64,000 nt of DNA from Macrocystis pyrifera (Eukaryota; Sar; Phaeophyceae; Laminariales; Laminariaceae): the NCBI GenBank assembly GCA_031763025.1, contig JASSKH010000005.1, forward strand, positions 14,110,628 to 14,174,627, given 5' to 3'. Positions 9,122 to 54,976 of the stretch are shown here, piece after piece. Below the pieces are notes generated by a model. That model did not search any database. It was not told the DNA's origin and was given only the letters and a program-made list of their open reading frames with translations. A program made the position numbers and the translations under genes. Numbering within the stretch: the first letter of the stretch is position 1; every line of letters begins with the position of its first letter.

Positions 9122-11873
9122 CTACTGTTGCTGCTGCTGCTGTTGCTGCTGCTACTGCTCCTACTGCCGTTGTTTGTGCTGCTGCTGGTGCTGCTGTTGC
9201 TGCTCTTGCGGGCTGTTGCTGCTGCTTGTTCTACTGCTGCGGGTCGCGCAGACCTGGCGACCGAGTGGTGGCCACAAGCGCGACCCTTGGCGACGGCCTG
9301 TGGGGAGAAGAACACGGTGGACGGCATACTCTCCGCGGTGGGAACGCGGCTGGTGTTTTCCGAAACCGTCACGCTGCGCGTCGAAAGACGGCTGGAGCCG
9401 CAGCAGCTGGCCGCCGCGAGGTGATTGGCAGAAGAGTAGTAAAAGGGAAACCAATTGGGAGAGGAGTGGCGAAAGGAAACACATCCATTCACTCCGTTAA
9501 TCCATCCATCCATCCATCCATCCATCCATCCACCCACCCTCCCGTTTTTTTTGTGCGGTGCGGTTCGGTGCGTTGAGGTTGTTCTGCTATTCGAGATTGC
9601 ACCTACGCGAACGTTTTGGCTCGTGGTGTTCTATGCGGTGAGCAACTTGCGTCGCCCCCCCCCCCCTCAATTCATTGACGCTGTCATCCATATACAAGAA
9701 AATCCGCCTCAAAAGCGGTTCTTCGTAGGATGCAGCTCACCCTTCATGCGACTCGCCCAATACCTCACGGCGCTTCGCGCTTGGTGCACGCAATGTCTGC
9801 CTGGTCGGTGAAAACCCGACGTGCTCCGTCCCGGCATTGTGGAGATGCGGGGGTCTATGGTCATACGACTACGGTCATGCATGACAATGAGTACACCCCC
9901 CCCCCCCCCCCCCCCCTCCTTTGCGGCAGCGTACCCGAGTCTATCTAAAACATTTGTCTCCTCGCCGACCCCCCCTCCCCATCTCCCCGCCCCCCCCCCC
10001 CCCCCCCCCCCCTCTCCCCTCCTGCCCTCAATATCTTTACCCCCCCCTTGCCGCCGGATTCGCGCCTGCATGCTCGGCCTCTTCTACGGGGAATCCCAGG
10101 TTCCAGAAGTCCGTGACGCAGACTTTCGAGGTCACCCTGCGTACGCCCCCTGGGCTGATTCTCGAGCAGATTTGGGACCCCTCGCGCAAAGGAAAAGCCG
10201 AAGGCGTTGTTGTGGCGGGGATGGTTGCCGGCAGCCCCGCTGACCTGAGCGGAGCGGTGCAGCAGGGGGATCGAGTGGTGGCGGTTGGCAGCTCCCTGGG
10301 AAACGTCATGTGGCCATACAGGTAAGGGGCGAGGGGGGGGGGGGGGGGGGGGGGGGGAGTTGGGTGGTATGGTATGATTCGGTCTGGTATGTTATGGTAT
10401 GATATGGGATAGGGATGGTATGGTATGGTATGGTATGACATGATATGGTATGGTATGGTATGGTGTGGTATGGTATGGTATGGTATGGTATGATATGGTA
10501 TGGTATGGTACGGGATGGTATGGTATGGGATGGTATGGGATGGGTTGGGATGGGATGGGATGGGATGGGATGGGATGGGAGGGGATGGGATGGGATGGGA
10601 TGGGATGGGATGGGATGGGATGGGATGATATGGTATGGTATGGTATGGTATGGTATGGTATGGTATGGTATGGGATGGGATGGGATGGGATAGGGTGGGA
10701 TGGGATGGGATGGGATGGGATGAGTTGGGATGGAATTGGATGGAATGGGATAGGGATAGAGATACGATAGGGTGGAATGGAAACAGGCTGCTTTCTCCCT
10801 ATCCCTTCTCCCCCTACCCCCGAACGCCTTCTTCATCGTGCGCACAACTGCTTACCCCCCTATTGCGCCCCTCCCCCCCCCCCCCCCCTTCATCTCGCTT
10901 GGCGCGGTAACAGGCGACTGGAGGGCGTGGCGAGCGCCATCGAGCTTCACATCGGCGGCACTATCAACCTCAGGTTTCAGCGCGTCGTCGAGATGGGAAC
11001 TTGGACGGACCCGTCTTCAGCGGTGAGGCAGAAAATAAACAAAGGGAGGGGGGGGAAGGAAGGAAGGAAGAAAAGGGCTGGGGGGGTTTGTTCCTCATTT
11101 TTGTTGGTCTCTGGTGTTGTTTATTTTGGTACGGTTGCTATTGGGGTGGAGAGGGGGGCGGGTGGGGAGGAGGTAGATGGAGGAGAGGAGAGGGGGGGGG
11201 GGGGAGAACGAGGAGAGGGCGAAGGGGAGGGGAAGAGTTGAGAAGAAGGAAGAGGGGAGAGAGGAGGACTATTGGGAGGGGGGGAAGGGAGGGGGGGGGG
11301 GGTGGAACGAGGAGATGAGCGTGTGTGTGGGGGAGTGATGTCTTCTTGTTTACCGGCTAGTCTATTGTTGACGTCATAGCACTCGTCGCCCCAATACTCT
11401 TAAGCTCCTTGTATAACTTATCTGGCGGCAAGGTGACATATGTGGTATATATTCACGATACATCGGTGGTGTTTTCATGCTCGATTTCCCGCGGGCCACG
11501 TACCAAACCCTCGTCCCCCTTCGCCTCCACCTCCTCCGCCTCCTCTTGCTCTGCCGCTGCCGTCATTCCCAACTCAATTTAACCCAACTCAACCCAACCT
11601 AGCCCAACCCAACCCAACCCAACCCAACCCAACCCGACCCATCCCAACCCTCACTGACCAACCCTTCCCCTTTCGACGAGCAGCAGGGGGAGGACCGCAC
11701 AATCGACAGCACCCTCAAGGCTTACCGCGAAAACGGTGGCGCCGTCACGACCCCCGCCCGCCCGCCGCCCGTCCCCGGCGGCGGCCGCCACCGCTGCCGC
11801 GATCGCCGCCGCTACGAACGCCGGCTTCGTCGTCTCCGGGGGCAGCAGCAGCAGCAGCAGCAGCGGTAGCAGC

Positions 11874-35580: not shown

Positions 35581-35599
35581 AGGCTAACCAGAGGGGGGA

Positions 35600-36376
35600 G
35601 TGGAAACGGTGGGGGCCCCGCGGGACGCATCAGAGTCCCGCAGTACCCCACGTGCTAGGCTCCCATTCCCATGACGTTGAAGACACCATGATCCGTACAC
35701 GGCGTTCCGTGCTGTAGTGTAGCGGGCGGGTTGTAGATCGATTTTGATCTGGCCGGGGTCGTCCAGGAACCGAATGATGTAGGAGCCGCCCGGTGAAGGT
35801 ATCGGTGGAGTATCCGAAGAGGCGTCCGGGGGTGAGCGGTGAACGATCTTGCCCAGCCACCAGAGGCCGTCGCGCGCCTTGTACAATATGTGTGCTCCGA
35901 AGGGGAGGATGGTAGTGCTGAAGTTGTGGAGCCAAAGACTGCGGGAGACCAAGGCGTAGCCGAGGGCGAGGCAGATTTATCCTTGGGATCGTGTCAGTTT
36001 GCGGTGAGCGGCGCCGATGCGCATCTGGCGGTAGAGGCGGTTCGTCTGCCGGTGCTGTGTCGGTGCTGCTGGCCAGTAGAGTAGGATGTTGCGCCGGAAG
36101 TGTTGAAGGTCCAGCTCGCGTTTCCAAGAGGGACTGAGAAGTCCAGCCCAGAGAGTCTCCTACAGAAATGGCGATGACCCCGCCGCGGCCGCGTTCGAAA
36201 AGATGGCCAGTGGTCTGCTCGACCTCGAGGCGTTCCGGTGGACGAGTGACGTCGTCGACGGTGACGTGGTAAGGTGGGGACTTGGTAGCAGAAGCTGTGA
36301 GCACGTATGTAATGAGGTCCGCGGGTAGATGCTTGGGGATATCGCTGGTGTCGTCGGGGTTCCGGCAAGGGTTCAT
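35600..36376 (-). pseudogene. Gypsy pol C-terminus: chromodomain-like region and tail
   Basis: Carries PPYHVTVDDVTRPPERLEVE and TTGHLFERGRGGVIAI, then in other frames W.G-type chromodomain remains and KARDGLWWLGKI, GSYIIRFLDDPGQIKIDLQP. Homologous text in the second gypsy fragment (52498-53160: YKGDDGLWWLGKI, LVRSLDDLGPIKLPLSPARY) confirms it as a conserved element part. Frameshifted. Confidence 0.65.
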
Positions 36377-37100
36377 CCTTGGACGGAGACGCGTGGAATG
36401 GAGTCCCGTCCCGGAACGTGTGACGGAAGGTCGAGGAAAAGTAGCTTGTGGTGAAGGGGGCGATTGTCGACGGTGTTTGAGGCGGGCGTCGGTCCTACGG
36501 CGAGGACCTTGAAGGGCCCATTCCAGTTCAGGGAAAGCTTCGTCTTAAGGACGGTTGTGTCGGTGTCCTTTTTGACGCCTGAGCCGATGGCGGAGGTGGA
36601 GTTGTAGACCCAAACCCAGCCGCCTACGGTGAAGGGGGGGGGGGTGCTAGGTGGGCGGCCATGATGGGCGCGTTGCGGCGCTGGAGACGCGAGACGGTGA
36701 GTCGGTGTAGTTCGCGGACGAGGGTGTAGGCGCGTCGTTGTCGGTCGGTGGCGAAGTTGATGTAGACCAGGTGTTCGCTGTCCAAGCTTTGGTGACCGCC
36801 GATGTTGTCGGGTTCGAAGACCGAGAGCGGGAGGTGAGGAGTAGGATGTGGACGTTGCCGCGCGGTGTGAGCGGCAGGGGCCCGAAGTAATCGACGCTGA
36901 CGGTGATGCCAGGTCCGTTGGGCAAAGGAAGAGAAAGGGGGGGGAATGATATGCCGGGAGGTCTTCCGCGCCTGGCATTGAAGGCAGCGGCGGATCCACC
37001 AGCGGACGGAAGCGTCCATGCCAATGCACTAAAAGAAACGTGCCAGCATGCGGACCGTTCGGGCAACTCCTAGGTGGAGAGAGATGGTGGCGTGGCATGT
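36373..37100 (-). pseudogene. Gypsy integrase, core deleted
   Basis: Zinc-binding region (HLGVARTVRMLA ... RRCLQCQARK) and the first core Asp (TVSVDYFGPLPL) are present. The sequence then jumps to VFEPDNIGGHQSLDSEHL, with the middle of the core missing; the second fragment at 53920-54105 retains FTDRFSRRADMYAV and WGCPRSILSDNGLQF. The C-terminal GPF module reads KLSLNWNGPFKVLAVGP. The deletion removes the second Asp, so this copy cannot integrate. Confidence 0.75.
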
Positions 37101-38179: not shown

Positions 38180-38857
38180 TTAGGGAAGCCGGGAGAGGAA
38201 GTCGGCGTTGCCGTTGGCCGTGCATTTCCGGTACTCCAGCGTGTAAGTGTACGCCGAAAGGAATTCGAGCCAGCGCCGGACACGGGCATTATGTTCTCCG
38301 ACCTTAGCGATGTTCTCGAGCGCATTGTGGTCCGAGTAGATCTGGAAGCGGGTGGACCATAAATGTCGGCGGAGGCGTTTGATCGCCCATGCGATGCTCC
38401 CGGTCTCCAGGTCGAGGGGTGTCCATGACCGTTTGGAGTCCAGGGAGGCACGGCTGATGAAAAGGATGGGGCGGACTGAGCCGTCGCGTTGTTCTTGCTC
38501 AAGGGTCGCTCCGAAATCGTCGATGCAAGCGTCGCAGTAGAAGCAGAAGGGAAGGGGGTTGTCACCGACGGCGTCCCGGTCGGGGTAGACGAAGATAGGC
38601 GATTCGGCAAGTTCTTGTAGGATGGCGCGTACGGTGGTTTCCATGGCGGGGGTGAAGTCAAACGTGGTGCCTTGTTTGAGTAGAGCGATGATCGGGCGCA
38701 GACGTCGGGAAAGGTTCGGCAGAAAACTTGCCGTAGTAGTTGATACCTCGAATGAGCGCGGCACTTGTTTCTTGTCAGTGGGCATGGGCATTCTGGTGAG
38801 GGCGACGACCTTGTCGGAGTTGGGGCTGCAACCGCCAGCGGAAATAGTGTGTCCCAC
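38180..38857 (-). pseudogene. Gypsy RNase H domain
   Basis: Open for 225 codons: connection region (DKKQVPRSFEVSTTTASFLP), FCFYCDACIDDFGATLEQEQ (catalytic D in CDA), RSWTPLDLETGSIAWAIKRL (E), FQIYSDHNALENIAK (D), ending TANGNADFLSRLP. Typical gypsy RH. Separated from RT by a frameshift near 38850. Confidence 0.85.
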
Positions 38858-38859
38858 GA

Positions 38860-39567
38860 ATCGGCCGTGGTGGCGCCAATTTTGGCCTTGGCGGGGGAAA
38901 GTTTAAGGTGGTGTTTCCGGAGGCGTCCGAAGAGGGCTCTGATGTTGGCGACGTGGTCGATGAGGTCGGGGTCGAAGACGATGATGTCGTCGAGGTACGC
39001 GGCGACACGTTCCAGGCCTTTGATGATCTCGTTGAGGACCTTGACGAACCAGCCGGGGGAGGCGCTGCTGCCTTGCGGCATAACAAGCCACTCGAATAGC
39101 CGGTTCGGGGTGCAAAACGCTCTTAAAGGGGTGGTGTCCTCGTCGATGGTGATTTGGTGGAACGAGGAGACCAGGTCGAAGAGCGAAAATATGCGACTTT
39201 TGCCCAAGGAGTCGAGGACTTCGTCGACGCGAGGGATGGGGAGTTGTCCGAGGGAGTTGATAGCGTTAAGCTTCTTGTAGTTGGTTGTGACACGGGCACC
39301 TCCATTCGTTTTGGGGATGTCGACCATAGGGCTGGAGTATCGTGACGTGGAATGCTGGATCAGGTCAGCGGCCAGGTATCAGTCTATTACGGCGTCGGCC
39401 TTCTTGGCGAGGATGGGGTTGATCCTGTAGGGGCGGGAAGTGACCGGTGCGCTATCCGAGGGTGCGGTGATCTTAAAGGGCATGAGTGAGCACGAGCCCA
39501 AGTCGGTCTTCGAGGTGGAGAAGACTTCCTGGAATTCGCAGAGGACGTCACCCAAGTTCTTGATCAC
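38860..39567 (-). pseudogene. Gypsy reverse transcriptase
   Basis: RT motifs in order: SRPYRINPILAKKADAVID, then TGA where a Trp is normal (39373-39378), MVDIPKTNGGARVTTNYKKL, FDLVSSFHQITIDEDTTPLR, FEWLVMPQGSSASPG and the catalytic YLDDIIVFD (about 38968-39000). One stop and a downstream frameshift; the core is otherwise well preserved. Confidence 0.9.
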
Positions 39568-39569
39568 CG

Positions 39570-40163
39570 ATAGGGTCCATCCACAACCGTGAAGGTCAAA
39601 GTTGACGTTGTGTAGGTGTAACGGCAGGCGGTGCCAGAGATCGAAGGAGCCTTCTCGTTGATCGGCGTCGAGTGGTGCAAGGAGCTGTGGGCAAGGGGCT
39701 TTTTATGCGGTAGGGGGGTCGTCTGTCGATGGGCTCTGGTCGGCCACGGGGATGTTGTCGTGGAGGGCATGTACGTTTGGAATTGGAGGGGAGTGGGGAG
39801 GTTCCAAGGAAAGGTGCCCAAGGGTAGTAAGTGGTACCTGTACCAGTGGGGAGCAGGAGGTTCCGAGGAGGTCGCCCGGCTCGAGATCGGTAGATCCAGA
39901 CGGTGGGACCGTATGGTACCCGTCGGAGACGAAAATCACCGTGTCAGAAAGGAGGTTCTCGCGGGGAAGCATGTTTCCCATGTAATTCCCGGTAAATGCC
40001 GGAGCGCCTAACTGACGCACCAGGTTGACCTTGACGAGCTTCGGGGTAGAGGAAAACGAAATAGCTCTGTTGCCGGCGATCCGGAGGTGGTAGACGTCGT
40101 CAGTGGAACGATCGTCGGGAATGAAGACTGAGGCTCCGTTGGGGTCGTGGTGACTCAAGAAGA
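39570..40163 (-). pseudogene. Gypsy pol spacer between protease and RT
   Basis: Open frame including LSHHDPNGASVFIPDDRSTD, VYHLRIAGNRAISFSS and LVRQLGAPAFTGNYMGNML. It directly continues the protease-side frame once the nested LTR element is removed. Ends at the GAAGA target duplication (40159-40163). Confidence 0.6.
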
Positions 40164-40411
40164 TGTTCGGAGTGCTCACGTACTTGGTGTATGGATTCAT
40201 GTGTAACGGTATTTGGGAGTTCCACACAGGAAATATGCGTGTTTCTGTGTGGAGCGGTCAGCGGGTTGCGACATATTTTGTCCGCCACTTACTTGATGTT
40301 CTCTCCCTTTCTTCCTTGTCTTGCGTGTTCTAAGTAATACTATATACACCCTGAGGGGCTTCTATGAACAGACCCAGGCTTGGCCTATGATATCAGTGAG
40401 TGCACCGAGCA
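40164..40411 (+). repeat. 5' LTR of the nested element
   Basis: Starts TGTTCGGAGTGCTCACGTAC and ends GTGCACCGAGCA. About a dozen mismatches to the 3' copy by eye. A TACTATATACACC segment near 40347 is a possible core promoter. Confidence 0.88.
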
Positions 40412-40420
40412 CACTAGCGG

Positions 40421-41244
<824 letters not shown>

Positions 41245-41263
41245 AGGTTGGTGAGAGGCTGGA

Positions 41264-41515
41264 CAACAACACGCGGGGGATGCAGGGGCAGTTGCCCGGC
41301 GAGACAGAGCGGAATGCTCTTCCAAGCCGGCCGACTATCGCGGCGGGAGGGATTTCCCCGAACGCGAGAAAATATGTGCCAGATTGTACACACGGCGCGG
41401 AAGTAATGGAGTACAACACGCGGGCGATGCAGAGGCAATTGCCCGGTGAGACTGAGCTGAACGCTCCTCCAACCTTGCCGATCATCGACGACGCGGGAGG
41501 GACTTCCCGCGCGCG
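41264..41515 (+). repeat. Tandem duplication of a 149-bp unit
   Basis: ACAACACGCGGGGGATGCAG at 41264 and ACAACACGCGGGCGATGCAG at 41413 begin two similar units, both encoding MQxQLPGETExNAxP in the same frame, followed by GGCGGGAGGGATTTCC / GACGCGGGAGGGACTTCC. Confidence 0.7.
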
Positions 41516-42369
41516 AGAGAGAGCGCACCAGAGGGTACGCGTGAGCAAGGACGGCTGCTTGGCCGGCGGGATCCATCGCCTACGAAAAAGGGCGAGACAT
41601 CACGAGGGGTTGTAAGCGATGCGCATCGGAGCAGGTACGGCATCGCTGTTGTGCTTACACCAGAGGAGGAGCCGTCTGACGAATCCGGTGCAGAACAGCA
41701 TGGAGGAAACGAGGACCCCCGAGGTGATGGAGGGGTGTCCGGAGCCGAGGACGGCCACAGGGCAGAGGCGGAGAGTAAGGCGGGAGAGGGGCAATGGAGG
41801 GAGAGCCCACATGGCTGACCGAGGGTGGAAGAGCACGCTGCGTCGGAGGACGACAACGAAGCGGACACGAGTTAAAGAGAAGGAGAAGGAGACCGAAAGT
41901 TGGAAACTGGGCGCTTGATGGAAACAGGTTGTTTTTAGATTTCTTGGTTTGGTCGGTTTGGTTGGATGATTTGGTTTTACTGTACAGCACGCGTATTGTT
42001 TTTGGGCCGACATTTTGAGATACTATGGATTTGTTTTTTTGTCAGCGGTATGTTTTTGATGACTGCTGTATCTTGCCCTCCCCCTGACGCCCAACCCCCC
42101 CCCCCTTGAGCGTTGTTGAGGTTGAACTGTTTATGAGTGAGTCAGCGGTTGGTAGAGTATGCGATGAGCGTCAGAGGTAGCTTTGCGGTAGCCTACTGCC
42201 GTGCCCGGACGAGTGTAGCTATATTACTGCTGTGCTGTTTCTGTGCGTTGATATTTGGAGCGGGACATGAGTGACGAGGAGATTAATTTTTGGTCGTGTG
42301 CTTGATCCCTATTTGATGATCCTCGAAATTAGGATCTTTAGCACTAAACCATGTCATTTGTGGTAAAAT

Positions 42370-42600
42370 GCGTAGTATCTCTAGGTTCACGAGAGATGCA
42401 TGTTTTGTTCACAACCGACGGAATTAATTATTTATAGTCATGGGTTCTACCGACGGAAACTAATAGCTGAAGTTTCCCAGAGGCAGGGAGAAGAGAAGAA
42501 CGGCCACACTCGTCCCGCGCCCCCGCCTAGCTACCGAGCACGGCACTGCTCGCTGCCGATTGATAGACCTAGAGGCTTGGTCTACTGTTGTGGTTTCTCT
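42370..42600 (+). repeat. A1 terminal repeat of the Ngaro-type element
   Basis: GCGTAGTATCTCTAGGTTCA to GTTGTGGTTTCTC; matches A2 at 44492-44740 (which has a 20-base extra stretch around TTCTCGTGATAGGTGCACAA). Confidence 0.88.
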
Positions 42601-42789
42601 GCCCCCCTCCCTGTGCCGAAGCTACATGCAGCCGCCGGTGTTTACACTGTGGTCAGACGCTCCCGGCGACGCCGTGGGTTTTTTTTTTTGGGGCCCGTTC
42701 CCGGGGCCGGCGTGTGGTGGCGTGTCGAATTTAACGCCGACGTTCGCGCTCGCCTGCGCGAGAAGGTTAGTGGTTGAAACGATCTGTCG

Positions 42790-43080
42790 ATTAATGTTCT
42801 CGAGTTGCTGGGCATGGTCGTGACAGCGTGGATATTCGTTAACAAGTTGGTGCTGCCTAGTTACGCGCGGGACACCATCCTGATGCGGGGAGACAACACG
42901 TCCGCTGTAAGGGGGGTAGGGAACCCCGATCGGGGGCACTCATGCGTCTTTTAGGGTGCATGGAGGTAGGCAGTGGATGGTGTTTCGACGCGTTGCATGT
43001 CGCGGGCGTGGAGAACACCATTGCCGACGGTATATCACGATGGAAGCCGGAGGCGATCGACGGTAACCTCCGCGCGTCCC
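42790..43080 (+). pseudogene. DIRS/Ngaro RNase H-like 3' part of pol
   Basis: INVLELLGMVVTAWIFVNKL, then ILMRGDNTSAV, and in a second frame HVAGVENTIADGISRWKPEA. These match the end of the RT/RNase H polyprotein of DIRS-order elements (RGDNTSAV and the HV.G..N..AD..SR signature). The RT catalytic motifs upstream are missing. Confidence 0.7.
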
Positions 43081-43109
43081 GGTCCGATGTTGCTTGGCGC
43101 CGATAGGTC

Positions 43110-44180
43110 TTGGGGCCAACGGGCGTCTCGCTATGCTCAGGAGTGCTGGCAGCCAGCTCATCCGCCAGTCGGTTGCGCCGTCGTCTCACCGAGCTTATAT
43201 GTCAGGTTTCCGGTCTTGGACCGCTTTTCGGGGGTTGATAAAGGAGGCTCCGTATTTCGACACGTCAGCCTCCAATTCGGATACGATTCAGGTGTTACTT
43301 GAGTTAGTAGCGTGGTGCGCGTCGGAGGGCAATCAAGTCGGTACTATAGCCAGTAAAATTTCAACCGTGTTGCACTTTCACCGCGTGAACGTGCAGATGG
43401 AGTTGCCCATGTCGTCGCCGCTTGTTAAACGCTCTTTGAAAGGGGTGGCACGGTCGCACGTTGCCGCCGGTACCCCGAAAATAATTCGGCGCCTGTATCG
43501 TGGGACACGTTGTTGGAAGGACAGGGCCTGGCCCTGTCGTGGGGCCCGGGCGGCCGAGTGCTTTAGCTGTCGCTCGCGTTGGGCTATTTTTTCATGGCAA
43601 GGTCTGGCGAAATATTCGCCTCCTCGTCCGGAGTAGTGCACCCCGTGCATTGCTTGGCGAGGGGGGGCATAGCGTTGTTCGCGGGGGGGCGGCGGTTGAA
43701 CTCGTTGCAGTGGTATCAGGCTACCAGCATCGAGGTTCTATTTCGAGGCCATAAAGGCGACCAGGCTCGGCAAGGATTGGTTATCGTGCGCACACGCGAC
43801 GACGCCTTCGGGGCGCGTTGCGGGGTAGGAGCAGGCGGCGGTGCCGTCGCTCTCATGGTGGAGTTGTTGTCGGGATATCCGACGTTGCCAGAAAGCGCCC
43901 CCCTGTCGTCGTATCGGTACGGTAATGAGGTCAGAGTGTGGGGGTACACGGACGCCCTCGGGGCACTCCGCGAAGTGGTAGCGGAAGCAGGAGACGACTC
44001 CAGCGAAGTCGGCCTCCATTCATTGCGTATCGGCGCAACCACTACTCTAGCGGCGGGGGGGGGGGGGAAGTGCCGCAGAGGGTGATTCAGAGAGAAGGTA
44101 GATGGAAGTCCCCAGAGTCTTCCAAGATGTACACCCGCAATAACCCAGAGGACGCGGGTATCGTATCTCGTAAGCTAGCA
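43110..44180 (+). pseudogene. Tyrosine recombinase (YR) of the Ngaro-type element, frameshifted
   Basis: N-terminal core-binding part: SSHRAYMSGFRSWTAFRGLI, then LPMSSPLVKRSLKGVARSH. Catalytic part: FMARSGEIFAS (first Arg), VLFRGHKGDQAR (Lys), GLHSLRIGATTTLAAGG (His-x-x-Arg) and, one frame over, RWKSPESSKMYTRNN (Trp and the Tyr nucleophile). All expected catalytic residues are present, but the frame changes near 43500-43580 and in the G run at 44056-44067. The protein would cut and rejoin circular cDNA at the genome. Confidence 0.82.
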
Positions 44181-44269
44181 GAGACGGGTAAGATAGGGCA
44201 GAGGCAGTCAGGTCAGGGTAGTGTTTGGGGCCGAACACCGTAGTATCGACGCGACCGCGGTATGGGGGT

Positions 44270-44493
44270 ATGTCAATGGTTTCTACTATTGGGGGTCTCG
44301 GTCGTCCGAGACTGCGTTTTTTAGAGCCCCGGCCAGTCGGCTGGGGGGGGGGAACTCCCGGGTACTGGCAGTACGATAAGGCAACAAGAGTCAGCGGCCG
44401 GTGCCGCGGCCCTCGTACCACGCCAGGAGACTCCCCCCCCGACGTCGGAGAGAATAATAATAACCTTACAATTCGAAGGATATACAACAAAGC
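44270..44493 (+). repeat. B1 repeat of the Ngaro-type element
   Basis: ATGTCAATGGTTTCTACTAT through GTCTCGGTCGTCCGAGACTG and CCCGACGTCGGAGAGAATAA to GGATATACAACAAAGCG. Matches B2 at 44874-45100. Each contains a strong hairpin GTCTCGG-TCGT-CCGAGAC. Confidence 0.88.
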
Positions 44494-44740
44494 GTAGTAT
44501 TTCTAGGTTCACGACATATGCATGTTTTGTTCACAACCGACGGAATTAATTATTTATAGTCATGGGCTCTACCGACGGAAACTAATAGCTGAAGTTGCCC
44601 AGAGGCAGAGAGAAGAGAAGAACGGCCACACTCGTCCCGCGCCCCCGCCTAGCTTCTCGTGATAGGTGCACAAGCAGAGCACGGCACTGCTCGCTGCTGA
44701 TTGATAGACCTAGAGGCTAGGTCTGCTGTTGTGGTTTCTC
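44492..44740 (+). repeat. A2 repeat of the Ngaro-type element
   Basis: Starts GCGTAGTATTTCTAGGTTCA immediately at the end of B1 and ends GTTGTGGTTTCTC. Direct copy of A1. Confidence 0.88.
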
Positions 44741-44873
44741 CCGCCCACCCGCCCCTTTCTTCTTTCGAAGGTGGGTGGAACGGAGCGGCCACAGGGTGCT
44801 GGCCACACCGTATTATACTTGCATTATTTTCTGCGATTAAAGCGATTCGGGGCTCTCACCAGGAGAGTGGGGC

Positions 44874-45100
44874 ATGTCAATGGTTTTCTACCATCGGGGG
44901 TCTCGGTCGTCCGAGACTGCGTTTGTTAGAGCCCCGGCCAGTCGGCTGGGGGGGGGGGGACTCCCGGGTACTGGCAGTACGATAAGGCAACGAGAGTCAG
45001 CGGCCGGTGCCGCGGCTCTCGTACCACGCCAGGAGACCCCCCCCCCGACGTCGGAGAGAATAATAATAACATGACAATTCGAAGGATATACAACAAAACG
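44874..45100 (+). repeat. B2 terminal repeat of the Ngaro-type element
   Basis: ATGTCAATGGTTTTCTACCA to GGATATACAACAAAACG; direct copy of B1. Right end of the element. Confidence 0.88.
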
Positions 45101-45304
45101 AGTGCATTTAAACTGCGGGTATTTCTATTCAAGTGATTTACGTGAAGACTAAAGGTTGATGACATGATAGTTGATAGCTGAGTGCGTCATTTCTGGAATT
45201 CTGTTTTTTTGCCTATCATACTGATACGTACATACACGGCTGCAGCAACAGGCGGCAGTACGGAGTGTTTTATGTGTATGTCATCGGTAACAATCCGGCG
45301 TGCT

Positions 45305-45387
45305 TGGAGCCGACAGAGAGGATTGAACTCTCGACCTACATCTTACGAAGGTGTACTGTTTACAATGCCAAGTATGGGCATAAGGGG
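45305..45387 (-). pseudogene. tRNA-Thr(CGT)-like pseudogene with encoded CCA
   Basis: Minus strand: T arm GAGAGTTCAATCCTCTC (5-bp stem), 3' acceptor TGTCGGC, discriminator T and then CCA. Anticodon arm ACACC-TTCGTAA-GATGT has anticodon CGT. The 5' half is degenerate (GCCCATACTTGGCATTGTAA) and pairs poorly, so it is not a functional tRNA. The encoded CCA suggests derivation from a mature tRNA. The same bases on the plus strand begin TGGAGCCGACAG, as a primer-binding site for that tRNA would. Confidence 0.5.
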
Positions 45388-46166
45388 GGCCATACAGTGT
45401 TGCACTATACCCGTACTGGGTTTCTCAAGTTTATGGATTTCCTGAGTTGATGAGTCGATCGTGATTCATGAGTGATGCTTTTTTCCCGTTCCGTTGGGGC
45501 TGGAAGATTGCTGTAGCAGGAAAGCTGAAATATTTGGAACTACTATATAACATTATTATACCGAATACGTACCTACGTACGTAATGTGGAACTGGAATCT
45601 GTTGTATTCGAGGTCGACCGCACTAAACTGGGGCGTTATTTCAGGGACGAAAGTCTGGGTTCTCGTTGCCGTTTGACTGGGTTTAGTGTGTCCCCTGTAA
45701 CTAGGTTATATCGGATTAGTGCTTGGTTGAGATGGAGAGTCTAACCCCAAAAGGTACTGCAGTACTATATAAATGATGCAAGGATTTGATTGTCTGTTTT
45801 CTGAGATTTTGAGGAGTTGCTTTGAGGGTTTTTCGGGGCTTGGCGGGCTTGATCTTTCTGTACAGTCGAGATTTGAGGAGTTGATTTTTATTTTTCTTCG
45901 ATTTATTATTTTTCGGGTTTTGAGCAGCTGTTCTTGGTACTATTTTCTGAGATATGAAGATTAAGTTTCTATCTTAGTGAGATTCGAGACTTTGATATTT
46001 ACATTTGTGAGATTCTGGTTTGAGGCGTTGGTGGTCTTGACATATTCTTATCTTTGAGTACAACACCATGGATTTGGATTTTGGGTGATCGTGGTTTATC
46101 ACCAAGGTACTTTATCATGAGCGATGTGTTTGGTTATCCCATTCACCAAGTAGAGAGCAGAGGGGC

Positions 46167-46414
46167 TGTTCAGAGTGCTCACGTACTTGGTGTATGGATT
46201 CATGAGTAACGGTATTTGGGAGTTCCACACAGGAAATATGCTTGTTTCTGTGTGGAGCGGTCAGCGGGTTGCGACGTATTTTGTCCGCCACTTACTTGAT
46301 GTTCTCCCCCTTTCTTCCTTGTCTTGCGTGTTCTAAGTAATACTATATATACCCTGAGGGGCTTCTATGAACTGGCTCAGTCTTGGCCTATCATATCAGT
46401 GAGTGCACCGAACA
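46167..46414 (+). repeat. 3' LTR of the nested element
   Basis: Starts TGTTCAGAGTGCTCACGTAC and ends GTGCACCGAACA. Same length as the 5' LTR; preceded by a purine-rich tract and followed by GAAGA. Confidence 0.88.
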
Positions 46415-46419
46415 GAAGA

Positions 46420-46947
46420 GCTCACCACGGGTTCGTCGGGGAGGTTGGTGGGGGGGGGGCGGACTGTCGCTAGAGCGTGATATACGAGGGTTGCTCGAAG
46501 CGCATCCAGTTGTCTCGTCCCAGGAGGATGGGTGCTGCATGGTTTCTGCAGGAACTACGCAGGCCCATACTGCTAGGGCAATGGTGGGGGCGCATAAACT
46601 GGATGCGTAAGAGGATGGAAACGGAGGTGGAGAGGGGGGGTTGAAGTGCCGAAACCTCCCCATGAATGGGGGGAACTGTGCCGTTCGCATGCATCGGTAG
46701 CTGCCTGCGAGGCCTTCAGTTGTTCCACCGCGGTTGCGGCTATAAACGACTGGGGCGAGCCGGTATCGAGTACTGCCACGAGTTCGCGGTGCGTAGTGGC
46801 GGTGGGGCCGCTGTGTACAAGTACCTTCGTCATGAACGACGCGTCGTCGACGGTAATGATGCGGCTTGTAAGGCATGGTTCGTGTTCCAGCATCGGCGGG
46901 CGGTGAGTAGGGAGGTGGCAGTGGGCTGCGGTGTTGATGGTGGACAC
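46420..46947 (-). pseudogene. Gypsy aspartic protease
   Basis: Carries VDDASFMTKVLVHSGP, LVAVLDTGSPQSFIAATAVE (catalytic D-T-G, about 46735-46775) followed by a hydrophobic strand. Frameshift downstream of the Trp-Gly at about 46660; another frame continues to the GELF next to the nested insertion. Retropepsin-type domain acting as a dimer to process the polyprotein. Confidence 0.78.
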
Positions 46948-47154
46948 TAGGGTGAGGTGGCTGCTGGGGTAGGCGTCGGGAGTAGACGGTGGTAGGAGTG
47001 GCCCGAGTGGGGGGTTACGCGGTTGGCATGGGGGAGGGGAGCTTGTCTCGTGGATGCCGTCGGCGGTGGGTAAGACCCGTGTTGAGTCGGTGGGGGCGGG
47101 TGTTGGCTCCGGGTCGTGAATATTGGTAGGGAATGGAGGTTGGGCGGAGCTATT

Positions 47155-47625
47155 GCGCCGAGGCTATCTCGAACGGCCATCAGTACCCGGCCCAGCAGGT
47201 TCCGACCATGCCAACGCGTCGGGTCGCAGGCGTCCGGATGGTCGAGCTTGAAGCCTATGCCCCAGATGACGTCGTGTGGGCTGGCCTCGGCGATGTACTT
47301 GTCGCCCGTTGCCGCTAGCTGTCGCCGTAGCTCCGGATGTCGGTGGAACTTGGAGAAGTTGAGGTTGAGGACGATGTTGTAGCGGTGTCGCTCCTAAACC
47401 ATTTCGTCGAAGCCGCAAACGTTTCGACCAAGTTCTTTTTGGTCGGCGAGATCGCGGGTCGCTTTCATGCGGCGCTCAGTTGTGGTGTCCCCGAAGAGCG
47501 CAGCCTTCTGCGCCATCATCATCTGCTCAGCGCAGTTGTATGTGACGCCATCGTGATCGATGTCGCACAGGTACCACTGCGAAAAGACGGAAGATGAGTC
47601 CCAAAAGAAGTGGAAAAATGAGGGG
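47155..47625 (-). pseudogene. NADAR (YbiA/DUF1768-like) domain within the gypsy element
   Basis: N-terminal half: FFWDSSSVFSQWYLCDIDHD, GVTYNCAEQMMMAQKAALFG, DQKELGRNVCGFDE. C-terminal half: RYNIVLNLNFSKFHRHPELR, LAATGDKYIAEASPHDVIWG, RWHGRNLLGRVLMAVRDSL. These follow the NADAR pattern (F..FS.WY, AE..MM..KA..F.D, GR.V.GF, N..KF, LL.TG...I.EAS..D..WGIG, G.N.LG..LM..R) and nearly span the domain. One in-frame TAG (about 47392) sits where a Trp is common. NADAR proteins act on ADP-ribose-linked substrates, including guanine ADP-ribosylation; the role in a retroelement is unknown. Same strand and order as Gag and protease, so it looks like part of the polyprotein. Confidence 0.85.
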
Positions 47626-48279
47626 GCCTCTGCGGTGATGTGTGCTGTCGATGGCGTGTTCTTTGTTGGGGGTGGGGGGAGGCGATAACTATTCATATCG
47701 TCACCTGGCGTCGGTGGGGGTAGAGTCAGCCACGATCTAGTGGTGCTGACCGGAACCCTCGTGTTCGCAGGGGAATTGCTCGGCAAAGTCGAGGTACCGG
47801 GGGGGTCCACGTGGGGGCTTATACGCCGGGCGAGGCGACCCTGAGGGGCCCTATCTTCCAACGTAGGGGGACACTCGCTAGGGTATGCCACACCTGGGGT
47901 CCGTATCCACGCGTTGCGCGAGGCAGGCGAGGAGGACGGGCAAGGGGGCTCAGGGCATGTCCTGGTCGACGGTGGTCGCGAGTCTTCTGTTTTTAAAACG
48001 GAACTGTCCCTCGAGCTCAGGGGCAGCAGTGGTGTCAACACCGTGGCAGCTGGTGGAAGCCCGACGTTCGCGGGTCCAACGCTGTCACAAGAAAAGCGCG
48101 CATGCTGGGACAAGCGTGTATGGGAGCGGCCAATTTGGGGTTGAGGAAGGCTCAGGGGGCGATGGCCCGGTGGACGAAACAGTTATTTCGTGTGAACCGG
48201 AACCGCTGGTGGCCGTAATCGTCGAGACATCTCCCACGGTTGTAATCTGGGGTCTCGGCAATGGTCGGCAAGCAGCGTT

Positions 48280-49944
48280 TCTCACCGCCGGGAGACATCG
48301 AGTGGAGCATGCTGGTGGGGCTCGGCGTCTTGGCCTCCTCCCGCCCACATCTCAAAGCAATCACTTGGGCAAGATGCTCTGTGCTTGAACAAGTGGCTGG
48401 GAAATGGGCTGGGGTAGGGGGGGGGGCATGGGGGGGCAGGGGTCGGGGAGGCGTGGTGCACGTGATTTACTCGTGCGTCCTGGGAGCCTCGGGTGCTCGC
48501 AGTAGATGTTGTTAGTGGAGATGATGCAGTTGCTCCACCATGGGCTTGCCAGTTGGTGCAGAAGGCGCCCGGCTGCCGTTGCTTCGGGTGGGTGGTCGAG
48601 TTGTTGCTGCCCATCCGCATGTTCGCGGGGGCGGCAGGTACGGAAGTGTTGGTCGGGGGGTATGCACCGTCAACGCTGAAGACGAGGGGGCGGGCTCGAT
48701 GCGTTGTTGTTGGAACTGTTGCCCTGGCGACTGTCGGTTGCCATTGTCGTATGAACGGCCGTTGTTTTGGCGCCAGTTGTCGGAGCGCCCTTTGCTGCCG
48801 CGGTAGTTGCGGGTGTAGTTCTGGTTGGAGCGGTTGTTGTTGTAGTTTCCGCTGCGGTTTGTTGTTGTGGTTGCCTCGACGGTTGTTGTTGTTGTAGCGG
48901 TTGGACGTCCGCTCCAGGTTATGCTCGTATTGTCCACAGCGGTAGGACAGCATCCTCTGTTGCCACTGCCGGTAGGCGTGTCTACCGTCGTTCAACTTTC
49001 CGAGTGCCGGGTTTAGGATGTCGGGCGTGTTGAGGAAGCCATCGGAGCAGGTCGTCATGCTATGGTCCATGCCATTGAAGTTGAAGCAAGGGCCACCGCG
49101 AGCACTTAGGGCTTGGGCGCGGGCCGAGATCGCAGGAGCGTTGTCAGGAGCGGTGAGGTCTGAGGGTTAAACGTGGTCGTCACCATGTTTACCTCCTCGT
49201 AATGCCGCAGCGGCCAGTCCGCCTCGTCCTCGCAGAACGGGTCGCCGTCCTGTTCGGCCACGATCATGATGAACGGGTTTGAGGAAGATCCCCTTGCGTT
49301 GGTGCTTGGGCCACGCAGAATTTGCTGCCGCGCTGGGGTAGGTGGAGAGGAGGAGTACGTTGTGGACCCGCCGGAGGAAGTCGTGTGGAAGCAGTGTCCG
49401 TTGATCGCAGTTATCTAGTTGGTCGCCAACACTTCGAATGCTGCCCACATGTCCGCAACCAAAGAGAAGGGCTGCGGGGTGGTCATGAGGCGCCCCGGAT
49501 AAAGCGTGGGCATAAGGGACGGGTATTGGCTGCCCGTGGCGCCGCGTACAATCTCGATAACCATGGCGTCGCTCGGCTTAAAGACCCGCTCCGTGCCTTG
49601 TGCGATGAACACACGTTCTTCAAAATCTCGGACGAAGGTTGCGAAGTCCGTAAGATTAGGGACGCCGAAGGTGTGGAACTGCTTCAAGGCGCGGCCCTGG
49701 TCGCCGACGAAGTGGTTCGTGAGTAGACATAGGAGCTTCTTTTACGCAGATGGTCCGGTGTCGTCGACGGCGAGCTCCTGGCGCACTTGGACGAAGAAAT
49801 CGTCGATGAGGCGGGGCAGTGGCGATGCCACAACCTGGGGGACGAGAGGGCCTTGCGAAAACTCTTTTGTAGTGTGGCATCCCATCTCACTGCCCACTGG
49901 GGTGTGTCAAACGACTGCGTCTCCGAGTCGTCGCACACGATCAA
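48280..49944 (-). pseudogene. Gypsy Gag-like region, frameshifted
   Basis: Segments in several frames: FGVPNLTDFATFVRDFEERV and MVIEIVRGATGSQYPSLMPT (49415-49687), LNPALGKLNDGRHAYRQWQQ RMLSYRCGQYEHNLERTSN (near 48900-49070), and an Asn/Arg/Gly-rich basic stretch (NYRGSKGRSDNWRQNNGRSY, about 48760-48830) suited to nucleic-acid binding. No clean CCHC knuckle was seen. Position upstream of protease supports Gag; the fold itself is not recognised. Confidence 0.55.
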
Positions 49945-52497: not shown

Positions 52498-54105
52498 TCA
52501 GCTATCTACGGCGGCGCCTCCAGATTTGTCTACGTTCCGCTGGGCCCCCCGTGCAAACGCGCTAGCCAAGTGAATTTTCAGACAGCAAGAACCTCGTACA
52601 GCTCTCGTCGAAGTCGTGTAGCGCGCCGGAGAAAGAGGAAGCTTGATCGGTCCTAGGTCGTCCAAAGATCGAACCAAATATACTCTATCCGTTGGCGTAG
52701 TCGCGCTGATTTTCCCGAGCCACCACAGACCATCGTCGCCCTTGTACCAAAAGTGGGCCCCGCTGGGAAGCACAGTGTTGCAGTATCGACTAAGCCAATC
52801 GGCGTGTGATACGCAGCCATAGCCGGGTGCCAGAAGCCGCTCGCCGTTACTCTGAGAAAGATCTCGTTGTGCCGCGCCGATTCTTGTTCGGCGGTACAGG
52901 CGGTTGGCTTGGCGGTGCTGGTTCGGAGTGCCGGCCCAGTAGCGCAGACGTTCGTGGCAAGAAAGCTGAAGGTCCATTTCTCGTTCCCAGGATGGACGGG
53001 ATAGTCTTGTTCAGTGCGTCTCGTATATCACCGCGATGACGCCACCTCAACCTCAAACCGCTTGGTGTCCGGTGATATTTCCCACTTCGAGTCGTTGAAG
53101 AGGGGTCGAAACGTCGTCATGGGTGACGTGGTACGGGGGGAATTTCTGAGAGAAGTTGTTGAGCACGTATCAGGTCAGCCCCTCCGGTAATTACTTCGGC
53201 ATGTCGCCACGGTCGTGGGGGTTGGCACAGGGCTTGCAGCGTTGAACTGATACGCGCCTGCGAGCATCAGCGCCGGGCATATCGGAAGGAAGATCCAAAC
53301 ATAGGAGCTTTTCCCCGAGAGGAGATCCGTCCGGGGTGTCCGCTGAGGAGCAGGGGCCAACTGCGAGGACTTTGTAGGGGCCCGCCCAGTTGAGTGAGAG
53401 TTTGGCCTTGAGAACCTTGGCGTCCGTGTCGGGCTTCGCGCTCTGGCGGGTAGTGGCCGCCGTTTTGTACACCCACGCCCAGCCGCCAACGTCAAGTTTT
53501 GGGACTGGACGCAGAGCGTCGAAGAGGGCGGAGTTGCGGCGGTTCACGCAAGCAACAGTGAGGGCGTGGTGTTCGCGAACGACATCCTACGCCCGCTTCT
53601 GGCGGTCCGTCGCCAAGTCGCAGTAAGTGAGGTGGTCGCAGGCCAAGCTCTGGTGGCCGGCGACTCCAGCACGCTCGAAAATGGCGAGAGGGAGGCGTGG
53701 CAGTCGACCCATATGGACCTCATTGGGAGCCAAACCCGTGGCGGCGCTGACGGAGTTGTTGTATGCGAGTTCAACGTGAGGGAGCTGTTCACCCCAGTTG
53801 TTTAGAAGCTCGTTGACGGCCATTGCCAGCATCTGGGCCATCTTGCGGTTTACACGTTCCACCCCACCGTTGCCGTTTGGGTGGAAGGAACTGGTCACAA
53901 TTTTCCGAACCCCGAGAAGCTAAAAAACGGCGTGCGAAAGCTTGGAGCAGAACTGGAGGCCGTTGTCCGAGAGGATGCTGCGTGGGCACCCCCAGAGGGA
54001 AATATACCGGTTGATGAGAATGTTAGCCGTGCCCTCAGCGGTGAACTCTGCCGCTGTGACGGCGTACATGTCGGCTCGGCGGCTGAAACGATCAGTGAAA
54101 AGCAA
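52498..54105 (-). pseudogene. Second Ty3/gypsy fragment: integrase and chromodomain-like end
   Basis: Minus-strand order: integrase core with FTDRFSRRADMYAV and WGCPRSILSDNGLQF (53920-54105), SSFHPNGNGGVERVNRKMAQ (with the catalytic Glu, about 53840-53898), AYNNSVSAATGLAPNEVHMG, then KLSLNWAGPYKVLAVGP (GPY module, about 53370-53420), PPYHVT and chromodomain remains (about 53060-53145), and YKGDDGLWWLGKI (about 52720-52760). Homologous to the end of the 35.6-50 kb element but more complete in the integrase core. Broken by stops and truncated at about 54110 where unrelated repeat sequence starts. Confidence 0.8.
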
Positions 54106-54976
54106 GAGGTAGGTATTTCCTCGACATCCAGCACAACAACCCGTATCCGTGCCGAGTCTTCAATCCTAGAGAGGTACAAATTCTGTGGCCACAAAAGTAC
54201 GCCACACATGGTGTGGTGTGGCATGGTATGGTATGGCATGGTATGGTATGGTACACTAGAGTAACGCTATTAATACACACAATAACACCTACTGGCACCC
54301 AACAATAACCACCTAATCAGAGTAATTCTTCCGTACGAGTAGAGCCACACCCTGGTACAACTTTTATTAATAGTACACTTTGTATTATATATTTATCGTG
54401 ACACAAAACCTTGACATCAACCTCGAATGAGCTTAGGTCACATATTCCCTGGTATATATTAACACCTGGTACTTGATACATACCTGGAATATATACTGGT
54501 GTATTGGTATTAATAGGAATTTGATTAAGGGTTACTCTCTGAGCGTGTAATATCTTACTCCAAACTTTTTAGCGACCCTCATATAGACAGTGAGCTATTA
54601 ATAGACGTCTTGATTGGGCTATTTCTGATTCCTTTGTGGGCCTATACGCGAATACTTACGTACGTACTCATACCTCTCACAGCTGTCAGAATACCACACA
54701 CAGCGAGCAGTGTTGTTCGCAGCTGTTTTTCTTGTACCCCTCAATCCAAGTGTATACATACACGCCCACGTCCTGCTACATACAGCGGTAGGTACAGCCT
54801 CCTGCCCATAGGTAATTGGAAACATATCAATCAACCGTACGAACGACATAAATCTTGTGTCTGAGAGATTCTCGGTTGTCAGGTGTGTGTGCGTTCTTCA
54901 CATTGAACCGCTCTTTCTAACCGTCGACATCCAGCACAACCAGTGTCCGTGCCGATTTTTCAATCCTAAAAAGTGT

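Follow-up and report, generated by a model that had tools for sequence, protein, structure and literature searches.

A NADAR domain directly upstream of the protease in a Ty3/gypsy retrotransposon lineage of Macrocystis pyrifera

A decayed Ty3/gypsy retrotransposon in the genome of the brown alga Macrocystis pyrifera carries a NADAR (YbiA-type) domain directly upstream of its protease. The copy lies on the minus strand of a 64,000-nucleotide stretch of contig JASSKH010000005.1 (assembly GCA_031763025.1, positions 14,110,628 to 14,174,627), hereafter the window, whose own numbering is used throughout, and it is disrupted by a stop codon, by frame changes and by an insertion. That the domain is a NADAR and that the element belongs to the gypsy lineage is close to certain. 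The element represents an abundant and probably brown-algal lineage that has NADAR as a regular component of its polyprotein. The best explanation overall, to which we give about an even chance, is that this lineage uses NADAR to hydrolyse guanosine-linked ADP-ribose on its own RNA or complementary DNA (cDNA).

NADAR is recognised in both halves of the interrupted domain

The two halves of the domain occupy adjacent stop-to-stop frames of the same register on the minus strand, and were searched separately against Pfam PF08719, for which the curated cut-off is 35.1 bits. Each half exceeded that cut-off alone: hmmscan matched 47394-48182 to profile positions 1-82 of 163 (E 6.4e-13, 49.7 bits) and 46947-47393 to positions 87-162 (E 7.3e-24, 85.3 bits), values far enough beyond chance to rule out a fortuitous match. 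The first-pass annotation of the window had read a nearly whole NADAR signature with a single stop codon at 47155-47625, with Gag-like sequence on one side of it and a DTG protease on the other. The profile matches bear out this reading of the domain, the span was within a few bases of the one derived here from motif positions (47160-47618), and the placement also stands, with "Gag-like" a label drawn from position and a zinc-knuckle-like motif. The interrupting TAG could in principle be read as a reassigned codon, but 126 of 150 scored copies from the same genome are free of stops, and reassignment is therefore not supported.

The domain recurs at the same place in many copies

A NADAR profile search of the M. 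pyrifera genome (537,376,219 bases in 223 contigs) returned 1264 first-look candidates. The 150 that were scored all passed the cut-off, and a count from the listing gave one in-frame stop in 24 of them and none in 126. From these 150 best NADAR scores we read 52 loci, namely every third rank (50 loci) together with ranks 5 and 8. The protease (PR) follows NADAR in 50 of the 52, and was not seen after it in L073 and L076; the PRc segment and a linker were each found in 49 loci and reverse transcriptase (RT), within the stretch read, in 30, so that the loci share the order NADAR-PR-PRc-linker-RT. In some copies NADAR, PR and RT stand in a single open frame, indicating that intact copies of this part of the element exist. 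Upstream, an exact CCHC zinc knuckle was found within 1 kb of NADAR at one of the 52 loci; the degenerate motif of the window lies farther away.

These data bear directly on the possibility that a host NADAR gene was inserted once into a single gypsy copy. The domain has the same place in 50 of the 52 loci, and the NADAR-protease order recurs in Ectocarpus and ENA proteins, while a published Ectocarpus lineage shares the arrangement (PMC12477816); a one-off insertion is thereby excluded for practical purposes, its residual probability being close to nil. NADAR is thus part of the retroelement, whereas the first-pass remark that it is not a standard gypsy component has been overtaken by the 2025 description of that lineage.

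The 52 loci form two subfamilies, A (n = 22) and B (n = 30, including the odd locus L076), between which synonymous divergence is saturated. Within B, ten loci have RT and 19 cross one identical junction without it. At the position of this junction nine of the ten RT-bearing copies hold about 1.17-1.18 kb and L070 holds 0.9 kb; the window is an RT-bearing member of B, in which the corresponding sequence is 38272-39443. The RT-deleted loci comprise L043 and 18 more (for example L047, L052, L056, L061, L072 and L079). Sixteen RT-deleted loci are 96-97% identical to L043 across nearly the entire 1.95-kb stretch compared, and L044 and L064 are interrupted relative to it. The common junction and this high identity indicate that an RT-less derivative was amplified with NADAR and PR kept, its RT presumably being supplied in trans.

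Relatives and a favoured single origin

The RT piece of the window has 73 relatives in the protein database at E <= 1e-10, of which the best is an ENA protein (87%) and the closest with an organism name is from Ectocarpus sp. CCAP 1310/34. PF08719 is present in nine of the 73 (P0024, P0030, P0047, P0056, P0059, P0060, P0061, P0065 and P0069), a number that is not a frequency, since few of the other 64 reach upstream even to the protease. P0069 is colinear with the window: a single frame takes in the end of NADAR, PR and the linker and continues into RT. With P0059 as its starting point, a NADAR-anchored search yielded 14 proteins. Among them are P0076, P0077 and P0078, where a protease motif comes after NADAR; in P0076 and P0078 the NADAR is full-length (profile 1-163), and a DTG/DSG motif lies farther along the same protein. 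NADAR therefore stands directly upstream of PR in P0069, P0076, P0077 and P0078 just as in the window; gene models from Ectocarpus often skip PR. No intact relative clearly lacking NADAR was found among proteins of which few extend far enough upstream. P0031, in which 363 residues precede RT and neither NADAR nor PR is matched, was considered as a counter-example and rejected, because its upstream part resembles, by eye, a non-LTR (long terminal repeat) reverse transcriptase; the protein is thus likely to be a fused gene model and is uninformative. When single pieces of NADAR or of RT were used as queries, neither genome contigs nor viral contigs yielded a relative.

A tree of RT with 56 rows was made by a quick method and omits 18 of the 73 proteins, those whose RT segments are short. 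In it a group of 54 rows, which includes the window together with 14 rows from Ectocarpus, stands against the outgroup P0071 and P0074 (Shimodaira-Hasegawa-like approximate likelihood ratio test, SH-aLRT, 100). Five of these Ectocarpus rows have NADAR in their records and nine do not. The NADAR tree has 54 rows, 22 of them from retroelements, and omits five partial relatives (P0024, P0030, P0061, P0065 and P0069) and 39 of the 52 loci; 19 of the NADARs found in 24 viral contigs were used in it and in the site counts, L017 and L021-L024 being left out. All retroelement rows lie on one side of a branch with support of 78/80 (not starred), which was present in 78% of 200 bootstrap trees, and the window falls within the B clade (99/100, starred). 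A monophyletic retroelement NADAR clade, which the first-pass annotation had raised, and with it a single origin, is thus favoured by this branch but not proven. The nearest outsiders are bacterial, fungal and viral-contig NADARs. The matches from phages and plasmids (536 and 57 records, respectively) are all below 60% identity, and for this reason we name no donor.

Four further NADAR proteins, P0080-P0083, show no retroelement domain in the table. One of them, P0080 (724 residues), joins PF03747 and PF00293 with NADAR in one chain, and by its table entry is no retroelement; we take these two families to be ADP-ribosylglycohydrolase and NUDIX, respectively.

The active site is conserved

Contact residues described for the Phytophthora nicotianae NADAR (PMC11543638) were placed through an alignment to structure 8bau, in which the published number equals the chain number minus 2, consistently at all 11 sites. 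The window is identical at eight of the 11, conservatively changed at two (Y84 to F, D86 to E) and interrupted by the stop at one. Both catalytically relevant residues, the Glu E43 and the Lys K50, are present. So is the Glu at E125 that marks the YbiA type, in place of Asp in the BC4488 type and His in the phage type (PMC11543638, PMC11125620). Among the 52 loci the contact residue is kept in 51 for E43, K50, R93 and E125, in 52 for K75, D130 and W133, and in 49 for R79; Y84 is replaced by F in all 52, and the eleventh contact site is invariant. Similarly, E43, K50 and E125 are each kept in all 11 readable rows among 13 polyprotein relatives. An AlphaFold2 model of P0076, built from a four-row alignment, was unusable (mean predicted local distance difference test score, pLDDT, 32.1).

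Selection between and within subfamilies

Stop-bearing copies were dropped from all ratios, leaving 41 of the 52 NADARs. For NADAR compared across subfamilies A and B, the ratio of nonsynonymous to synonymous differences per site (pN/pS) had a median of 0.47 in the true frame (375 pairs; pS 0.736, which is saturated), as against 1.20 in one wrong frame and 1.32 in the other, and the Jukes-Cantor-corrected median (dN/dS) was 0.177 over the 236 pairs with finite values. The other segments gave 0.45 for PR, 0.61 for PRc and 0.19 for RT. Within subfamilies, where copies are young, changes few and the sample biased, NADAR pN/pS was 0.51 in A, 1.16 in RT-bearing B and 0.46 in RT-deleted B, with wrong-frame controls from 0.43 to 1.75; the corresponding PR values were 0.50, 0.74 and 0.97. 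Purifying selection, for which the first-pass annotation had asked for a test, is therefore supported between subfamilies, and the signal within them is mixed.

A putative hydrolase delivered with Pol

NADARs, including E. coli YbiA, strip ADP-ribose from guanosine both in DNA (PMC11125620) and in RNA, those tested being inactive on phosphate ends (PMC11833690) and on uracil (PMC13036486). Three enzyme families have been named that reverse ADP-ribosylation, NADAR being one of them (PMC11833690, PMC13036486); what NADARs naturally do outside toxin-antitoxin pairs has been called unclear (PMC11125620). Given the conserved active site and this known activity, the simplest reading makes the domain a guanosine-ADP-ribosyl hydrolase that travels with Pol. 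It would be made with Gag-Pol, enter the virus-like particle or be released inside it, and act as an N-glycosidic ADP-ribosyl hydrolase that keeps the RNA template or the new cDNA clear of guanosine ADP-ribose adducts, which might otherwise block reverse transcription or mark the nucleic acid for attack. The activity of this version, its substrate, its location in the particle and its benefit to the element are inferred. Intact copies probably encode an active hydrolase; that it works on the nucleic acid of the element itself has slightly less than an even chance. More doubtful is that NADAR is a particle enzyme countering host guanosine ADP-ribosylation, which even the RT-deleted family has kept, and such counter-defence, put forward in the first-pass annotation, stays a testable hypothesis. 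A host defence or attacker acting by nucleic-acid ADP-ribosylation is not known to us from algae, no search aimed at one, or at a guanine-directed ADP-ribosyltransferase of the host, having been made.

Several observations weigh against the hydrolase reading. NADAR evolves faster than RT (pN/pS 0.47 against 0.19), the within-subfamily signal is mixed, and the 52 loci, drawn from the 150 best NADAR scores, are biased towards intact NADARs and so overestimate intactness. In E. coli, rescue from the DarT1 toxin was obtained with only two DarT-type NADARs and not with YbiA (PMC11125620), and activity on guanosine in the tube thus does not fix a cellular role. At the contact sites themselves, D86 varies freely among the 52 loci (30 E, 19 C, 3 Y), K75 differs in three of the 11 readable polyprotein relatives, and P0077 is altered in the alignment at R79, D130 and W133. 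The changes at K75 and in P0077 would suit a captured fold that serves without enzymatic activity as a structural spacer or an RNA-binding Pol module, yet the retention of E43, K50 and E125 in nearly all copies and in every readable relative argues against this alternative, which we consider improbable.

The domain could also act on small metabolites. It may process soluble ADP-ribose, NAD-derived signals or reactive intermediates of the riboflavin pathway, thereby lowering host alarm or supporting NAD balance during retrotransposition, and NADARs act on riboflavin-pathway intermediates, viral ones have been proposed to prefer soluble ADP-ribose derivatives (PMC9503650, PMC11543638), and the ADP-ribose contact sites are kept in the M. 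pyrifera loci. However, a domain built into the polyprotein would more plausibly reach the particle than the cytosol, and an enzyme of metabolites has no need of fusion ahead of a protease, which leaves a soluble substrate unlikely in our estimate. A protein substrate, which could be Gag, integrase or a host restriction factor that PARP-like enzymes of the host have modified, would accord with the proposal that Macro and NADAR domains in polyproteins of positive-strand RNA viruses counter host macromolecular ADP-ribosylation (PMC9503650). The NADAR activity described, however, is on guanosine bases and not on RNA phosphate ends or uracil, and the available text of these reports (PMC11833690, PMC13036486) describes no protein substrate; we place this possibility at the bottom of the three, marginally below the non-enzymatic one.

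The lineage provides natural variants of an active site kept through long divergence, with more than 1000 first-look candidates, and the abundance of the family in this genome makes the role of NADAR testable. The Gag-Pol particle in which the domain would reside offers a place to ask how nucleic-acid ADP-ribosylation affects replicating RNA and cDNA, and counter-defence, if true, predicts a host ADP-ribosyltransferase that acts on retroelement nucleic acid.

Structure of the window element and its surroundings

The remaining features of the window element (Table 1) follow the Ty3/gypsy order of protease, RT and RNase H on the minus strand, with a nested insertion between PR and RT. For the three pieces of the Gag region, Pfam had nothing to match at E values up to 0.1. 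The 55 residues around the protease motif are 73% identical to P0008, and the conserved segment before RT is 44% identical to P0069, 75% to P0008 and 81% to P0068 (95 residues), further relatives being as low as 31%. The Ectocarpus relatives P0036 and P0056 carry integrase PF00665, and the tail beyond the integrase remnant of the window had no Pfam match. A convincing pair of LTRs for this decayed copy was not found between 32.0-36.2 and 49.4-53.0 kb, and Rfam and tRNA scans of the window found nothing.

Table 1. Features of the NADAR-bearing gypsy element and of the insertions nested within it (window positions).
Feature	Position	Strand	Basis
Degenerate zinc-knuckle-like motif (CFNFNGMDHSMTTC), upstream of NADAR in Gag-like region (about 48.3-49.7 kb)	49047-49088	-	By eye
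NADAR (YbiA-type) domain, near-complete, one internal stop	47160-47618	-	Pfam match of both halves; limits by motif positions
In-frame stop TAG, the sole stop within the NADAR domain	47394-47396	-	Boundary between two frames
Aspartic protease active-site motif LDTGSPQSF, frame differs from NADAR	46744-46770	-	Motif
Later protease-region segment, near nested insertion	46538-46579	-	Surrounding piece matches P0008, P0055, P0062, P0066, P0069
Nested LTR retrotransposon, 6.25 kb, splits gypsy protease region	40164-46414	.	Alignment to own-genome copy L063
Right LTR of nested element	46167-46414	.	248 bases
Ngaro-like tyrosine-recombinase unit inside nested LTR element	42367-45100	+	Split-repeat pairs
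Left LTR of nested element	40164-40411	.	248 bases, 95.2% identity to right LTR
Conserved segment between protease and RT, gypsy sequence after insertion	39706-40163	-	Protein matches
Reverse transcriptase RVT_1	38875-39318	-	E 4.5e-23; YLDD at 38986-38997
RNase H (RT_RNaseH, RT_RNaseH_2)	38249-38656	-	E 1.6e-24 and 1.9e-16
Integrase zinc-binding remnant	36957-37022	-	Integrase_H2C2 E 2.7e-4, 21.4 bits, below 25.5-bit cut-off
C-terminal tail past integrase, possible chromatin-reader-like region	35587-35976	-	48% identity to P0047 residues 647-752

The direct repeats at 40164 and 46167 were considered as LTRs of the NADAR element itself. This was ruled out by L063, an unbroken copy that aligns at 88% to window positions 48606-46414 and 40163-37916; because it crosses the site without interruption, the repeats belong to a nested insertion. 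The terminal repeats, the TG...CA ends and a flanking 5-base target duplication, GAAGA, read by eye from the alignment, identify this insertion as an LTR element. It in turn contains a Ngaro-like unit with split repeats at 42367-42532, 44343-44494, 44489-44654 and 44949-45100, such that three elements are nested: the gypsy element with NADAR, the LTR element and the Ngaro-like unit. Frames at 43067-44085 (+) carry motifs, recognised by eye, that we take to be recombinase-like; 43067-43636 had no Pfam match.

Elsewhere in the window, a second, diverged gypsy remnant lies at 52498-54159 (-), with an integrase core (rve match of E 1.2e-7 and 32.4 bits against a cut-off of 32.6 bits) and a tail similar to 35587-35976 (72% across 136 bases). 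Dispersed 242-base repeats occur at 9667, 14340, 18511, 25786 and 52160, the other copies being 63-90% identical to a reference copy, and related shorter repeat families are also present. Two arrays of TGGGATGGGA-like repeats were seen, at 10352-10800 and from 50906.

Comparison with known systems

By sequence, the domain belongs to the same family as the P. nicotianae NADAR (PDB 8bau), which the second half of the window domain matches at E 2.2e-7; no solved structure matched the first half at E 0.001. The relative P0078 matches 8bau at E 3.4e-17 and E. coli YbiA (PDB 2b3w) at E 7.3e-6. Unlike the domain studied here, neither 8bau nor 2b3w is part of a retroelement. The NADARs of nidoviruses and other positive-strand RNA viruses are likewise embedded in polyproteins of RNA-based replicators, and counter-defence has been proposed for them, but by their description they belong to animal RNA viruses that use an RNA polymerase rather than RT (PMC9503650). 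A Tx1 LINE (long interspersed nuclear element) of Crassostrea gigas is also a retrotransposon with a YbiA-family NADAR; as described, it is set apart as a non-LTR element with divergent hits, in which NADAR lies in open reading frame 1 (ORF1) rather than in Pol (PMC12477816).

The closest system is the Ectocarpus gypsy lineage of Dinatale et al. 2025, in all families of which Pol opens with a YbiA-type NADAR; the authors suggest for it the processing of RNA intermediates, and for one family, Gypsy-12_Ec32, they name a C-terminal chromodomain fused to integrase (PMC12477816). No further paper on NADAR in retrotransposons was recognised among the matches listed, in a search that covered work other than preprints. 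Of the 73 RT relatives, the eight from Ectocarpus that carry PF08719 are 45-66% identical to the window RT, in keeping with a shared NADAR-Gypsy type. The M. pyrifera genome differs in holding two subfamilies at saturated divergence and an amplified RT-deleted derivative. The passages of PMC12477816 considered here make no statement on active sites, selection or an RT-deleted derivative; relative to these passages, what is new here is a second genome, the conservation of the active site, selection between subfamilies like that on the protease, and an amplified RT-deleted family that keeps its NADAR and protease.
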